A DNA stretch of 55,777 bases from Fibrobacter sp. GTDB taxonomy: Bacteria; Fibrobacterota; Fibrobacteria; Fibrobacterales; Fibrobacteraceae. Under the pieces are notes generated by a model. The model saw only the letters and a program-made list of their open reading frames with translations, was not told the origin of the DNA and did not search any database. Below, piece by piece: positions 5,980-55,777 of the stretch (position 1 is the stretch's first letter; each line of letters starts with the position of its first letter). The DNA is taken from NCBI GenBank assembly GCA_024398965.1, contig JAKSIF010000017.1, forward strand, positions 1 through 55,777, in the 5' to 3' direction. The position numbers were made by a program, and so were the translations under genes.

Positions 5980-6498
5980 ATGAAACATCTATTTGGTTTG
6001 CTTTATGCCGCATTTGTGATGTGGCCTCTATGCGCTTGCGCAGATTCTGGTTCAAGTGCGGAACAGAACTCAATCGCTGTTGAAAATAGTTCATCAAGCG
6101 AACAATCCGTCCAAATTAGCAGTTCCTCATCGGCAAAAATTGAAATGAACAAAATCAAGATCACCATCGGCTCTCAAGAATTCACAGCAACTCTGGCAGA
6201 CAACGCCACTGCCAAGGCATTTGCCGAACGTCTTCCCCTGACCGTTTCCATGACAGAACTTCACGGCAACGAATATTACGTCTACCTAGATTCCGGTTTC
6301 AAGACCACAGGCTACGCCCCCGACACAATCAAGAAAGGCGACATCAAGGTTTATGGTTCCGACTGCCTCGTCTTTTTCTACGAGACCTTCAGCAATCCAG
6401 GCTACAGTTACAGCGACATCGGAACTTTTGAAAATCCAGACAGTTTAAAGGACTCCCTAAAAGCTGGCGCCAAAAAAATCACAATCCAAAGTTTTTAA
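5980..6498 (+). CDS. Cyclophilin-like fold lipoprotein
   Basis: A 172-residue exported protein. The signal peptide ends in the lipobox-like LCAC around residues 17-20, then a Ser-rich linker to about residue 50 that is typical of Fibrobacter lipoproteins. The remaining domain (KIKITIGSQEFTATLADN, FAERLPLTVSM, GDIKVYGSDCLVFFYE) matches the small cyclophilin-like domain often found beside flavodoxin and aldo/keto reductase genes in gut bacteria. Whether it has prolyl isomerase activity is unknown. It starts six bases after larC and lies 30 bases before a flavodoxin-like gene, so it fits better with that downstream cluster. An AAGGAAG ribosome site precedes it. Confidence 0.75.
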   Translation: MKHLFGLLYAAFVMWPLCACADSGSSAEQNSIAVENSSSSEQSVQISSSSSAKIEMNKIKITIGSQEFTATLADNATAKAFAERLPLTVSMTELHGNEYYVYLDSGFKTTGYAPDTIKKGDIKVYGSDCLVFFYETFSNPGYSYSDIGTFENPDSLKDSLKAGAKKITIQSF

Positions 6499-23260: not shown

Positions 23261-24262
23261 TTACTTAATTCGCCATTCTAGAGTCTGGCCTGCGGCGAGG
23301 GGTACTACACCGTTGACGACTGCGGGAACGGTCCAGCTTTCCTTGACCACTTCGATCTGCTTTGTGGTGCGGGGAATGCCATAGAAGTCTGCGCCAAAGC
23401 CTGCGATAAAGTTGGGAAGCTTGTCCAGGGCGCCGGCGCGGTCGAATTCCTGGACTAGGAGAGGAAGGGCCACCGGAGCGCTGTAGACGCCCGCTGCCCC
23501 GCATGGGCATTCCTTTTTACCCTGCTGGTGCGGGGCAGAGTCCGTGCCGAGGAAGAACTTCGGGTTGCCGCTGAAGGCGGCTTCTCTAATGGCGGCACGG
23601 TCTTCAGGCCGCTTCGGTAACGGCTTGCAGAAATGGTGCGGCCTGAGGGCGTCTCCGATGACGTCGTCCAGAGTCATCATCAGGTGATGAACCGTAAAGG
23701 TGGCAGCCACATTTGCGGGCAGACGCTTGACCGCTTCCACGGCCTTGGCGCTGGAAAGATGTTCAAAAACAATCTTCAGCTTGGGGAACTTTTCTGCAAG
23801 AATTTCAACGCGCTTGATAAAGGCGGGCTCGCGGTCTAGGCAGAATTCGCCCGGTTCTTCGCCGTGGACGCAGAGCACGAGGCCAAGCTTTTCCATCATG
23901 GCTACAACGGGAAATACCGCTTCAAAATCGCTGATGCCATCGGCGCTATTGGTGGTGACGCCTGCAGGGTAGTACTTGCCTGCCACTACGCCTGCGGCCA
24001 TCATGTCCTTCAGATCCTGTTCGGTGTAGCTGGGATTCAGCTTGAAGGTCATGAGGGGCTCAAAGTCCGGGCGAATGTCCGCTGCGGCTTCCAAGATTTC
24101 CTTCTTGTACTGAGCAATGGACGCGGCACTGGTCATTGCCGGGATGGTGTTGGGCATAATGATTGCGCGGCCGAATTGGGAAACAAGGTCGCGAACGTAG
24201 CCGGGCATCAATTCGCCCTGACGCAGGTGAGCATGAAAATCGTCTGGTAAAGGAAGGAACAT
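23261..24262 (-). CDS. pyrC: Dihydroorotase, class II
   Basis: A 333-residue dihydroorotase that closes carbamoyl-aspartate to dihydroorotate in pyrimidine synthesis. DDFHAHLRQG gives the HxH zinc pair near residues 9-11, and MPNTIP, AGKYYPAG (the carboxylated Lys), CVHGE, FEHLSSA and LGTDSAPH follow in the order of the PyrC (class II) enzymes. The ATG at 24262 is chosen because the family starts with PLPDDFHAHLR; an upstream in-frame ATG lies inside the repeat array. The start codon directly abuts a heptanucleotide array and no ribosome site is visible. Confidence 0.95.
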   Translation of the reverse strand: MFLPLPDDFHAHLRQGELMPGYVRDLVSQFGRAIIMPNTIPAMTSAASIAQYKKEILEAAADIRPDFEPLMTFKLNPSYTEQDLKDMMAAGVVAGKYYPAGVTTNSADGISDFEAVFPVVAMMEKLGLVLCVHGEEPGEFCLDREPAFIKRVEILAEKFPKLKIVFEHLSSAKAVEAVKRLPANVAATFTVHHLMMTLDDVIGDALRPHHFCKPLPKRPEDRAAIREAAFSGNPKFFLGTDSAPHQQGKKECPCGAAGVYSAPVALPLLVQEFDRAGALDKLPNFIAGFGADFYGIPRTTKQIEVVKESWTVPAVVNGVVPLAAGQTLEWRIK

Positions 24263-24367
24263 AGTGATTAGTGAAGAGTGAATAATGAACAATTAACAAT
24301 TAACAATGAACAGTTAACAATGAATAATGAAAGATGAAGGATGAAAAATGAAGGATGAGAAATTAGG
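24263..24367. repeat. Degenerate heptanucleotide tandem array upstream of pyrC
   Basis: Fifteen seven-base units in perfect register fill the gap between mlaF and pyrC. On the plus strand they read AGTGATT, AGTGAAG, AGTGAAT, AATGAAC, AATTAAC and so on, with consensus RRTKARN (one exception at position 6). T at position 3 and A at position 5 never change, while positions 1, 2, 6 and 7 vary. As a result every unit holds TGA, TAA or TAG on the strand opposite to pyrC. The same AATGAAC and AATTAAC units recur at 55674-55701. Confidence 0.85.
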
Positions 24368-24368
24368 G

Positions 24369-25208
24369 CTACAGGAGGGAATGCTGCATGGGGGATTCCT
24401 GTGCCCGCAGGTCACGGAACAGTTCCCTGGAAATTTCGGTATCGGAATTCAGCCAGTAGTCAAAACTTTGGGGTTTTGTCAATGTCTTGCGGTGAAGGAA
24501 GCAGATATTGCAATCCAGTTCCTTGGACATAAGCAAGTCGTGGGTCACGATGACAATCGTGGTCTTGAACAGCATTCGCATGTTGTCAATCAGCGGCAGC
24601 AGATTACGGCGGTTGTAGTTGTCCAGACCGGCGGTAGGTTCGTCCATCAACAGCAACTTCGGGTCCATGGCCCAGGAACGGGCGATAGCTACACGCTTCT
24701 GCATACCCATACTCAGCTGGTGAGGGAATAAATCCGCATGGTCGCGGACTCGCATCAGGTCCATGGCCATCTGGATCTTTTCTTCGATTTCTGCAGGAGA
24801 TCCCCTCTTGTGGTAACGAAGCGGTAGCGCAATGTTGTCGCGCACACGCATGTTGGAAATGAGGGCTCCGTTCTGGAATACGAGACCTACCTGGCGCTTC
24901 GCTACTTCCAATGCAGTCAAACGTTCCGGAGAAATGTATTCGCCGAAGTAGTACATGTTGCCGGAAGTTGGGCGGACAAGACCTGCGATAATTCGGAGAA
25001 GGGCGCTCTTGCCCTGGCCGGAACCGCCACCAATGCAAAGGGTCTCGCCACGATTGACCACCAGGTTGGCGCCAATAATGAGTTCCTTCTGGGGGTCTTC
25101 TTCCTTCTTGCTGAAAAAGCCCAAAGAGCGGGGCTTAGAAAAGATTGTACCAGCCAAGTCCTTATAGGCCAGGTGGATGTTTTCCATTCTTAAGGCTTCG
25201 TCTTGCAT
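24369..25208 (-). CDS. mlaF: MlaF-like ABC transporter ATPase
   Basis: A 279-residue ABC ATPase. Walker A is GGGSGQGKSALL near residue 60, the Q-loop follows in LVFQNGALISNM, the signature is LSMGMQKR and Walker B is LLLMDEPTAGLD near 190, with the switch His in VTHD. GALISNMRVRDNIALPL is typical of the MlaF/Ttg2A group that powers phospholipid movement between membranes. It follows the MlaE-like permease by one base. An insertion of about 25 residues (FSKPRSLGFFSKKEEDPQKE) before Walker A is unusual. The substrate-binding MlaD is not in the window. Confidence 0.87.
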   Translation of the reverse strand: MQDEALRMENIHLAYKDLAGTIFSKPRSLGFFSKKEEDPQKELIIGANLVVNRGETLCIGGGSGQGKSALLRIIAGLVRPTSGNMYYFGEYISPERLTALEVAKRQVGLVFQNGALISNMRVRDNIALPLRYHKRGSPAEIEEKIQMAMDLMRVRDHADLFPHQLSMGMQKRVAIARSWAMDPKLLLMDEPTAGLDNYNRRNLLPLIDNMRMLFKTTIVIVTHDLLMSKELDCNICFLHRKTLTKPQSFDYWLNSDTEISRELFRDLRAQESPMQHSLL

Positions 25209-54566: not shown

Positions 54567-54583
54567 GTCTTTTTAAATAGCTT

Positions 54584-54657
54584 AAAGTTTAAAGGATAAA
54601 GCTTAAAGGACTGTAGGACTCGTCCCGAACACCTTTCTACTTTAACCTTTACACTCT
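54584..54657. repeat. Imperfect inverted repeat with seven-base periodicity
   Basis: The left arm (54584-54609) and the right arm (54632-54657), read on opposite strands, match at 20 of 26 positions, with a 22-base loop. The left arm shows TAA at 54583, 54590, 54597 and 54604, exactly seven bases apart. The repeat starts seven bases after the SDR stop codon on its transcript and precedes the terminator. Confidence 0.55.
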
Positions 54658-54663
54658 CACCTA

Positions 54664-55437
54664 TTACATGCAGGTGTAGCCGCCGTCAACCGGAACCATG
54701 ATGCCGGTAACGTAGCTAGAGGACGGAGAAGCAAGGAAGATTGCTGCAGAGTCCAGTTCGCCTTCGTTTCCATAGCGTTCTGCCGGGATCATAGTCTTGG
54801 CATTTGCCTGGAAGAAGTCGGAATCCAGAGTTTCCTTGGTGAGCGGGGTGTAGAAGTAACCCGGGCAGATTGCGTTCACGTTGATGCCCTTGCTGGACCA
54901 TTCAGCGGCCAGAGCGCGGGTCAGGTTCACGACAGCACCCTTGGCTGCGTGGTACGGAGCGGAACCGCAGATCTTGTTACCAACAAGGCCGTACATGGAG
55001 GCGATGTTGATGATGCGGCCATACTTTGCAGGCAACATTGCCTTCTTGGCGACGGCGCGAGCCATCTTGAAGGTACCGCCCAGGTCCACGTTCATTTCGT
55101 GGTTCAGCTGGTCGTCGGTAATGTCTTCTGCCGGAGCAACAGCGCCGGTACCGGCATTGTTGATCAGGATGTCGATGCGGCCGAACTTGGCGAGGATTTC
55201 GTCAACGGCGGCTTCGACCTTAGCGGTGTCGGTAATGTCGCACTGAACGCCGATAGCTTCAACGCCAAATTCAGCGGTGAGGTCGGCAGCAACCTTGTCA
55301 ATCATTTCCTTACGGCGAGCGATTGCAACAATCTTTGCGCCCTGATTAGCGAGAGCCTTGGCCATCTGAACGCCGAGACCAGTGGAGCAACCAGTGACAA
55401 CTGCAACCTGGCCGGAGAGATCGAAATAATTCTTCAT
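54664..55437 (-). CDS. SDR family oxidoreductase (gluconate 5-dehydrogenase-like)
   Basis: A 257-residue short-chain dehydrogenase. VTGCSTGLGVQMAKAL is the TGxxxGxG cofactor loop, DILINNAGTGAVAP holds the NNAG motif near 95, and the catalytic Ser is in NIASMYGLVGN with YHAAKGAVVNLTR (YxxxK) near 165. The closest impression is of the gluconate 5-dehydrogenase/3-oxoacyl-ACP reductase group, but SDR names are rarely safe from sequence alone. A long AT-rich gap of 267 bases separates it from the divergent aminotransferase gene. AAGGA lies upstream of the ATG. Confidence 0.88.
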   Translation of the reverse strand: MKNYFDLSGQVAVVTGCSTGLGVQMAKALANQGAKIVAIARRKEMIDKVAADLTAEFGVEAIGVQCDITDTAKVEAAVDEILAKFGRIDILINNAGTGAVAPAEDITDDQLNHEMNVDLGGTFKMARAVAKKAMLPAKYGRIINIASMYGLVGNKICGSAPYHAAKGAVVNLTRALAAEWSSKGINVNAICPGYFYTPLTKETLDSDFFQANAKTMIPAERYGNEGELDSAAIFLASPSSSYVTGIMVPVDGGYTCM

Positions 55438-55673
55438 TTTTTATTCCTTGTGTTAGTTTAATTGTTTTTGCGGAAATAAAATACATTCAAATTTGATGAA
55501 AAAACTACAAAGTGACGTTTTTTGGGGGCAATTTATTGTAAAAAGTTGTTGTTCTAGGGGAAAATGCAAATAAAAACGCAAAAATCGAAAAAAAGATGAC
55601 GTTTAAAAGGATTTCGTAATTCGAAACGTTGAGAATCCGGCGAGTGTTTTGCAATTATTTGTAATTTTTCACC

Positions 55674-55701
55674 GTTCATTATTCATTGTTAATTGTTCAT
55701 T
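55674..55701. repeat. Heptanucleotide array upstream of the last aminotransferase
   Basis: Four seven-base units in register on the minus strand: AATGAAC, AATTAAC, AATGAAT and AATGAAC. These are the same units as in the array before pyrC. The array ends three bases before the ATG at 55705, and again the TGA/TAA-bearing strand is opposite to the gene. The remaining 55438-55673 is AT-rich with A and T runs and shows no gene. Confidence 0.7.
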
Positions 55702-55704
55702 GCT

Positions 55705-55777
55705 ATGAAACCTCTAAGCGATCGCACTAACCATTTTACGGAATCCGTTATCCGCTACATGACCCGCATTGCAAACG
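55705..55777 (+). CDS. Class I/II PLP-dependent aminotransferase, N-terminus (partial)
   Basis: The first 24 residues read MKPLSDRTNHFTESVIRYM and continue TRIAN up to the window edge. This matches the start of class I/II aminotransferases of the kynurenine/aspartate type, where the pattern xxFTESVIRxMTxxAN precedes the substrate loop. Only the N-terminus is visible, so subfamily and activity cannot be named. The ATG follows a heptanucleotide array with no Shine-Dalgarno sequence. Confidence 0.7.
   Translation, partial: MKPLSDRTNHFTESVIRYMTRIAN

Follow-up and report, generated by a model that had tools for sequence, protein, structure and literature searches.

Why should the entire spacer between two co-directional genes consist of a seven-base tandem repeat? 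The question arises from a 55,777-nt stretch of a Fibrobacter sp. genome (the window; contig 17 of a source genome, G000, that comprises 3.59 Mb in 151 contigs and is 99.9% complete), in which 15 units of 7 bp, read directly from the sequence, occupy positions 24263-24367 (+ strand). The units are AGTGATT, AGTGAAG, AGTGAAT, AATGAAC, AATTAAC, AATTAAC, AATGAAC, AGTTAAC, AATGAAT, AATGAAA, GATGAAG, GATGAAA, AATGAAG, GATGAGA and AATTAGG, and form a family that can be written RRTKARN (AATKAAN). The array makes up 105 of the 106 bp of the gap: it directly abuts the ATG (24262-24260) of pyrC (dihydroorotase, 23261-24262, - strand), and 1 bp separates it from the stop codon TAG (24371-24369) of the gene upstream, mlaF (ABC transporter ATP-binding protein, 24369-25208, - strand). 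Because the pyrC start codon is conserved in relatives, the array truly reaches the start. The preliminary description had T3 and A5 invariant and a TGA, TAA or TAG on the + strand of every unit, and both statements are correct for 15 of 15 units; its form RRTKARN also fits, save that R6 is broken once, in unit 1 (AGTGATT). The array is far beyond chance, as 15 three-unit matches in the window, 12 of them within this array, compare with an expectation of 0.01 after dinucleotide shuffling. Tandem Repeats Finder describes the repeat as 10.6 copies of period 7 with an 80% match. The purine-rich strand is the + strand, and the pyrC-sense RNA is therefore pyrimidine-rich.

Is the array a signal for pyrC? 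As to a transcript feature, which had been suggested at the outset, the pyrC leader is predicted to be unstructured (-3.3 kcal/mol, z -0.6), no stable RNA fold indicative of an intrinsic terminator or structured leader being predicted for it; an Rfam search of the window and five other G000 stretches gave no match except one tRNA. Of 25 starts that have an array no more than 12 bp away, 1 carries a Shine-Dalgarno-like motif, compared with 38% of all genes (p=1.5e-4). The pyrC leader, pyrimidine-rich and predicted to be unstructured, lacks such a motif. We envision that transcription turns the array into this leader of 106 nt, which would separate pyrC translation from mlaF translation; pyrC would then be initiated in an A/U-rich and probably S1-assisted manner. 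The array is probably filler that is tolerated rather than a switch specific to pyrC.

The history of this gap can be followed in related genomes. Close pyrC homologs, with identities of up to 97%, come from Fibrobacter or from Fibrobacteraceae/Fibrobacterales bins; in the nearest of them and in several others the mlaF-pyrC junction measures 5-20 bp, and 30 of 52 Fibrobacter genomes lack an array in this gap. Elsewhere the gap contains period-7 arrays of ACACATT, ATCAATC, AGTAACT, GAGTAGT, TTATGAA or other units, which are often arranged in inverted pairs. On an mlaF+pyrC tree of 52 genomes other than G000, the array label changes 11 times, with at least eight changes on well-supported branches. 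A comparison of copy number between strains, proposed in the preliminary description, bears out changes by whole units: sisters differ in 7-bp steps (L045, 119 bp, and L051, 126; L071, 106, and L072, 99), and L076 has one extra GAGTTTT unit relative to L077. A smaller tree groups G000 with L046, the locus of sister species G010, with moderate support (83/86). A sub-block of ~5 units (24313-24348, + strand; RNA sense ATTTTTCATCCTTCATCTTTCATTATTCATTGTTAA) is identical in 36 of 36 nt to the same-locus array of G010, although identity between the two genomes is 85% for pyrC and 79% for mlaF. We rejected a copying of the array from another G000 array, since the longest block shared with others in the fetched stretches is 24-27 nt compared with 36 nt for the orthologous array. 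It is likely that a short pyrC operon junction (~6-18 bp) was filled by such an array, probably before the split between G000 and G010. A separate dispersed repeat, the hairpin element CTGGATTCTTCCCCTTACAGGGTCAGAATGACGCCAG, adjoins heptamer arrays in the pyrC spacer of G010 (L046) and at ~5985-6020 of G000 stretch L151, the two copies being in opposite orientation as printed.

The array is one of many and not a pyrC-specific signal. Related arrays had been placed before two other genes of the window. This holds for a second array of the AATKAAN family (55657-55702, purine strand -), which ends 3 bp before the ATG at 55706 (+). The other (54579-54608, +) is of a different family, GGWTAAA, and is situated beyond the stop codon of the gene at 54664-55437 rather than ahead of its start; it is the purine arm of an inverted pair, the pyrimidine arm of which (54630-54668, -) runs to that stop codon. 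Across G000, four-unit matches number 68 + 83 as opposed to 3 + 15 for the reversed pattern, and a simple edge pattern marks 53 array starts as opposed to 15 for its reverse. Arrays were located by such patterns and by stretches, and ~50 is a rough lower bound. Heptamer arrays are also found at or within ~1 kb of contig ends (C12 end, C37 start, both ends of C10, C17 end). Since contigs end in or near arrays, assemblies probably break there, which again makes the count a lower bound.

In spacers, periods other than 7 and its multiples are almost absent. In 41 stretches around G000 arrays (512 kb, 484 predicted genes), 77 period-7 segments lie in spacers (53.5 kb), none in coding sequence and none in shuffles; in the spacers the multiples 14 and 21 are also present, and periods 2-6, 8 and 10-13 yield zero segments. 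Unselected Fibrobacter DNA (0.91 Mb, coding included) contains 35 period-7 segments compared with 0-5 at each of periods 2-6 and 8. None was seen in the 150 kb of E. coli K-12 that were scanned. As for the letters, G000 contains further families (GGWTAAA, AATTAYG, GGCTCRA, AATKGAT, GGTCTAG and TAACTGA), and a single array may switch families without leaving the 7-bp register. A long array in G030 (L234 687-1009) carries several families in one register, and a similar succession recurs ~220 bp on.

How are the arrays arranged relative to genes? In spacers of 80-250 bp they occupy 45 of 111 co-directional, 3 of 27 convergent and 4 of 39 divergent cases, numbers of which only the ratio between spacer classes counts, as the stretches were chosen around arrays. 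The purine strand of single arms is directed away from the nearer gene in 28 of 33 instances (p=7e-5). Paired arms in G000 are purine-rich, then pyrimidine-rich on the strand read in 23 cases and the reverse in none, and seven Fibrobacter genomes, weaker arms included, provide 62 convergent '+-' neighbour pairs and no '-+' pair. A stricter score with wider distances recovers two '-+' neighbours, in G006 and G008; the convergence rule is therefore near-absolute rather than absolute. Many arm pairs span from no more than a few tens of bp off the left gene to no more than a few tens off the right. In G000, the cores between arms consist of short A/T linkers and short GC hairpins, with 15 perfect hairpins (9 distinct stems) compared with 0.7 in shuffles, and spacers with arrays fold more stably as RNA than spacers without them (mean z -2.1 versus -1.25). 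In a genome from another genus of the class (G044), GC-rich CGTCGGG heptamers form a convergent pair that flanks a terminator-like hairpin (L191 8468-8560). With respect to genes, the arrays are placed in a strongly non-random way, and the conditions that the preliminary description had named as refuting, random placement or an equal signal in shuffled sequence, were not borne out. Because the period is always 7 and the direction nearly always away from genes while spelling varies between species, step and direction are what is kept.

Such regularities bear on the simplest explanation, ordinary slippage in low-complexity, AT-rich spacers. Slippage would fit the unit-step changes in copy number and the confinement of G000 arrays to non-coding DNA. 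However, it would not be expected to avoid periods 2-6 and 8 almost entirely, to impose a fixed polarity and convergent pairing or to leave array-free spacers without a purine gradient, none being seen there; moreover, the GC-rich heptamers of G044 behave alike. We consider slippage in this ordinary sense very unlikely, and its simple form is ruled out by the period spectrum and the geometry.

Are arrays maintained once established? We compared orthologous spacers of G000 and G010 in five regions. G010 has arrays in 9 of 9 spacers that contain one in G000 and in 0 of 12 that are array-free in G000 (p=3e-6). The same family is kept in five of the nine shared array spacers, and in the other four G010 has a different one (AATTGAT, AATTGAC, GGTTAGT and AGTAGAG/GGCTAGG). 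At the pyrC gap and at L124 5962 the two genomes have only blocks in common. Three spacers are nearly identical: 99% over 134 bp (L137 6201-6334), 94% over 158 bp (L124 13102-13259) and 97% over a shared 59 bp, the last being a spacer (L121 5269-5396) in which G010 has both arms but lacks the core. In the first two, which are among the most conserved, a window-by-window comparison gives 97-100% identity across most of the spacer, with a drop near the gene ends; for the genes on either side the values are mostly 67-93%. Spacers of 94-99% identity next to genes of mostly 67-93% look like the product of constraint or recent exchange, which speaks against neutral filler. Among the next relatives, G023 has an array in one of six of the same spacers and G024 in none of four, and conservation in the same gene context holds for the sister species only (9/9).

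Conceivably, a small element of ~100-130 bp, mobile or dispersed and composed of an arm, a hairpin core and an inverted arm, inserts at the borders of genes. The arrays would then be its ends, and a single array like that at pyrC would be a decayed or partial copy. Such an element would be consistent with the convergence of 62 of 62 opposed arm pairs, with the common layout of G000 cores, with the coreless pair of arms in G010 (L121), and with a 110-bp element of L124 that has 80-85% matches at several non-orthologous G010 sites. The presence of this dispersed, repeated core in both genomes suggests that whole elements also move. On the other hand, neither a target duplication nor a clean empty site was found, cores differ in other species (in G044 the core is the terminator-like hairpin), and two arms of the same element agree in unit family only a little more often than arms taken from different elements (p=0.02), with complementarity no higher. 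Y1 transposases, moreover, were not detected in the array-bearing genomes G006, G008 and G010. On balance, we hold a mobile origin of the arrays to be doubtful. Two related candidates were discarded: REP/REPIN sequences with a RAYT, because arrays do not correlate with Y1 transposases, none being detected in G006, G008 and G010; and arm pairing as a selected feature, because arms of one element complement each other no better than arms of different elements do (p=0.72). G000 itself contains two Y1 transposase domains (C32:23965-24321 and C9:59849-60205) in frames of 160-163 aa, an IS200-like size, unlinked to arrays.

What, then, do the constant letters mean? Neighbouring AATKAAN units differ at positions 1-7 in 25, 19, 8, 25, 10, 11 and 33% of comparisons; the constancy claimed in the preliminary description is thus real, with differences of 8-11% at positions 3, 5 and 6 versus 19-33% at 1, 2, 4 and 7. 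A conserved role tied to these letters, which had been read from it, is not supported, given that other Fibrobacter species fill the pyrC gap with other heptamers or with nothing. A protein that stacks every 7 bp could regulate or organise the locus, and a precedent exists in the parS heptads WATCACW of plasmid pSM19035, which are arranged in 7-10 contiguous units overlapping promoters and are bound by the ribbon-helix-helix protein Omega/ParB, with at least four contiguous heptads needed for full activity (PMC9499535). Seven base pairs is hence a known stacking step, and the constancy of positions 3, 5 and 6 within a genome as well as the hyperconservation of some array spacers between sister species would be in keeping with binding. 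Beyond contiguous 7-bp units, however, the likeness is limited: the parS heptads serve partition and repression by a known protein, and their consensus fits only 1 of 15 units here (AGTGATT). The letters, furthermore, vary from species to species and among the arrays of a single genome, the family has changed in four of nine orthologous spacers, and the hyperconserved spacers retain even freely variable positions, which selection for sites would not need. An Omega family search of G000 gave no match, and neither did its control. Taken together, this makes a heptad-binding protein of this kind quite unlikely as an explanation for the arrays.

Alternatively, the strand that leads out of a gene might receive stops in every frame from the arrays, which would thereby block readthrough or antisense translation. 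Each of the 15 units does carry TGA, TAA or TAG on the + strand, and a period of 7 distributes these over all three frames. Yet A at position 4 would keep TAA and is found in only 2 of 339 units, where G and T dominate; arrays of the same type are built from families without a stop on that strand (GGCTCGA, AATTACG, GACGAGA, CGTCGGG); and beside a start codon there is no protein whose synthesis could be ended. The rarity of A4 and the stop-free families contradict the block to antisense translation proposed earlier, and the broader stop-codon role is highly improbable.

Unit variation also bears on how arrays arise. In G000, unit identity falls with distance from 0.83 at lag 1 to 0.65 at lag 8, as expected from tandem duplication. 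RRTGAGC arrays of G008 differ between neighbours at positions 1-7 by 59, 49, 15, 17, 8, 7 and 22%, the two purine positions being random already at lag 1, and tandem duplication alone does not account for this. In individual G008 arrays (e.g., L223 761-840), positions 1-2 are random A/G from unit to unit and the other five nearly constant. Position-specific misincorporation by a templated, telomerase-like enzyme would explain such randomness; if the enzyme added repeats to 3' DNA ends that were subsequently joined, convergent purine-rich arms would result. Convergent purine-rich arms are the geometry of fused telomeres. However, no RVT_1 domain was detected in the array-bearing genomes G000 (99.9% complete) and G030, and we regard this scenario as the most improbable of those considered.

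Given the observed period of 7, placement, pairing geometry, unit-step changes, in-place family replacement and missing Shine-Dalgarno sites, we consider it probable that the pyrC-gap array belongs to a class of intergenic heptamer repeats that is found throughout the genus, derives from in-register duplication and deletion of 7-bp units and constitutes a multi-family variant of the class known from Xanthomonas and Nostoc. We envision that 7-bp units are duplicated and deleted in register within spacers between co-directional genes and that purine-rich strands run into the spacer from the genes on both sides, in many cases forming two convergent arms that enclose a core with short GC hairpins. 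Duplication would be the generating process, and the letters would have no specific function. Plain duplication and drift, nevertheless, do not account for a period of only 7 or for outward polarity at both start and stop sides.

The literature searched (open sources) yielded no report of heptamer arrays in Fibrobacter. The closest parallel is formed by the G-rich GGGNATC and GGGGA(C/T)T heptamers of Xanthomonas and Nostoc (Rehm et al., 2015; PMC4692102). These are mostly intergenic, mostly between aligned ORFs and rarely between divergent ones. Within 50 bp, the purine-rich strand is the coding one 3' of stops and the non-coding one 5' of starts; Xanthomonas has 70-75 cases of convergent inverted pairs, positional conservation is reported for its heptamers, and gene context is retained between species while length and sequence vary (PMC4692102). 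Fibrobacter shares the period of 7, the intergenic site, the preference for aligned ORFs, the outward polarity, the convergent pairs and, between G000 and G010, the retention of arrays in the same gene context. It differs in that its units are mostly AT-rich and devoid of G-tracts, that several families coexist per genome and are swapped in place between species, and that cores contain paired GC hairpins. G-tracts of at least three per unit are absent from the 24263-24367 array, which places it outside the narrow GGGNATC class. Without G-tracts, Fibrobacter units form no quadruplex, and because they nonetheless follow the placement rules of Xanthomonas and Nostoc, it is unlikely that quadruplexes account for placement in all of these genera.

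TAACTGA direct repeats of Beggiatoaceae, Cyanobacteria and Bacteroidetes mostly end a few bases before a start codon, where a ribosome binding site is usually missing, and show 7-nt indels between close cyanobacterial strains (MacGregor, 2015; PMC4679880). Fibrobacter shares the proximity to start codons, the rarity of Shine-Dalgarno motifs and the 7-bp differences between strains; the unit TAACTGA itself is absent from the pyrC-gap array and present in G000 array L153. That system has one dominant heptamer in 2-6 copies in the type genome, with only one inverted repeat listed there (PMC4679880). As a further case, the STRR heptanucleotide repeats of Calothrix and Anabaena are tandem heptamers of several kinds per genome, though of other letters and in another phylum; heptanucleotides of Calothrix are mentioned in PMC4692102.

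What do these arrays imply for heptamer repeats in general? Heptamers in bacterial spacers have so far been explained by their letters, as quadruplexes if G-rich or as protein sites in the case of TAACTGA. Since mostly AT-rich heptamers, and GC-rich ones in a relative of the same class, obey a period, polarity and pairing like those of Xanthomonas, a letter-dependent explanation is unlikely as the common cause. The observation made at pyrC stands; its letter-specific interpretations do not. As a tentative and on the whole rather unlikely proposal, a letter-independent bacterial process might add DNA at gene borders in steps of exactly 7 bp, the purine-rich strand facing outward, such that Fibrobacter, Xanthomonas and Nostoc would differ only in spelling; its cause could be a DNA-binding or replication factor that steps in heptads and changes its specificity quickly. 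Sister genomes show arrays kept, lengthened, shortened and swapped within the same spacer, and the questions of why seven and why outward become testable in cultivable Fibrobacter. The phenomenon is worth study across the genus and the phylum.
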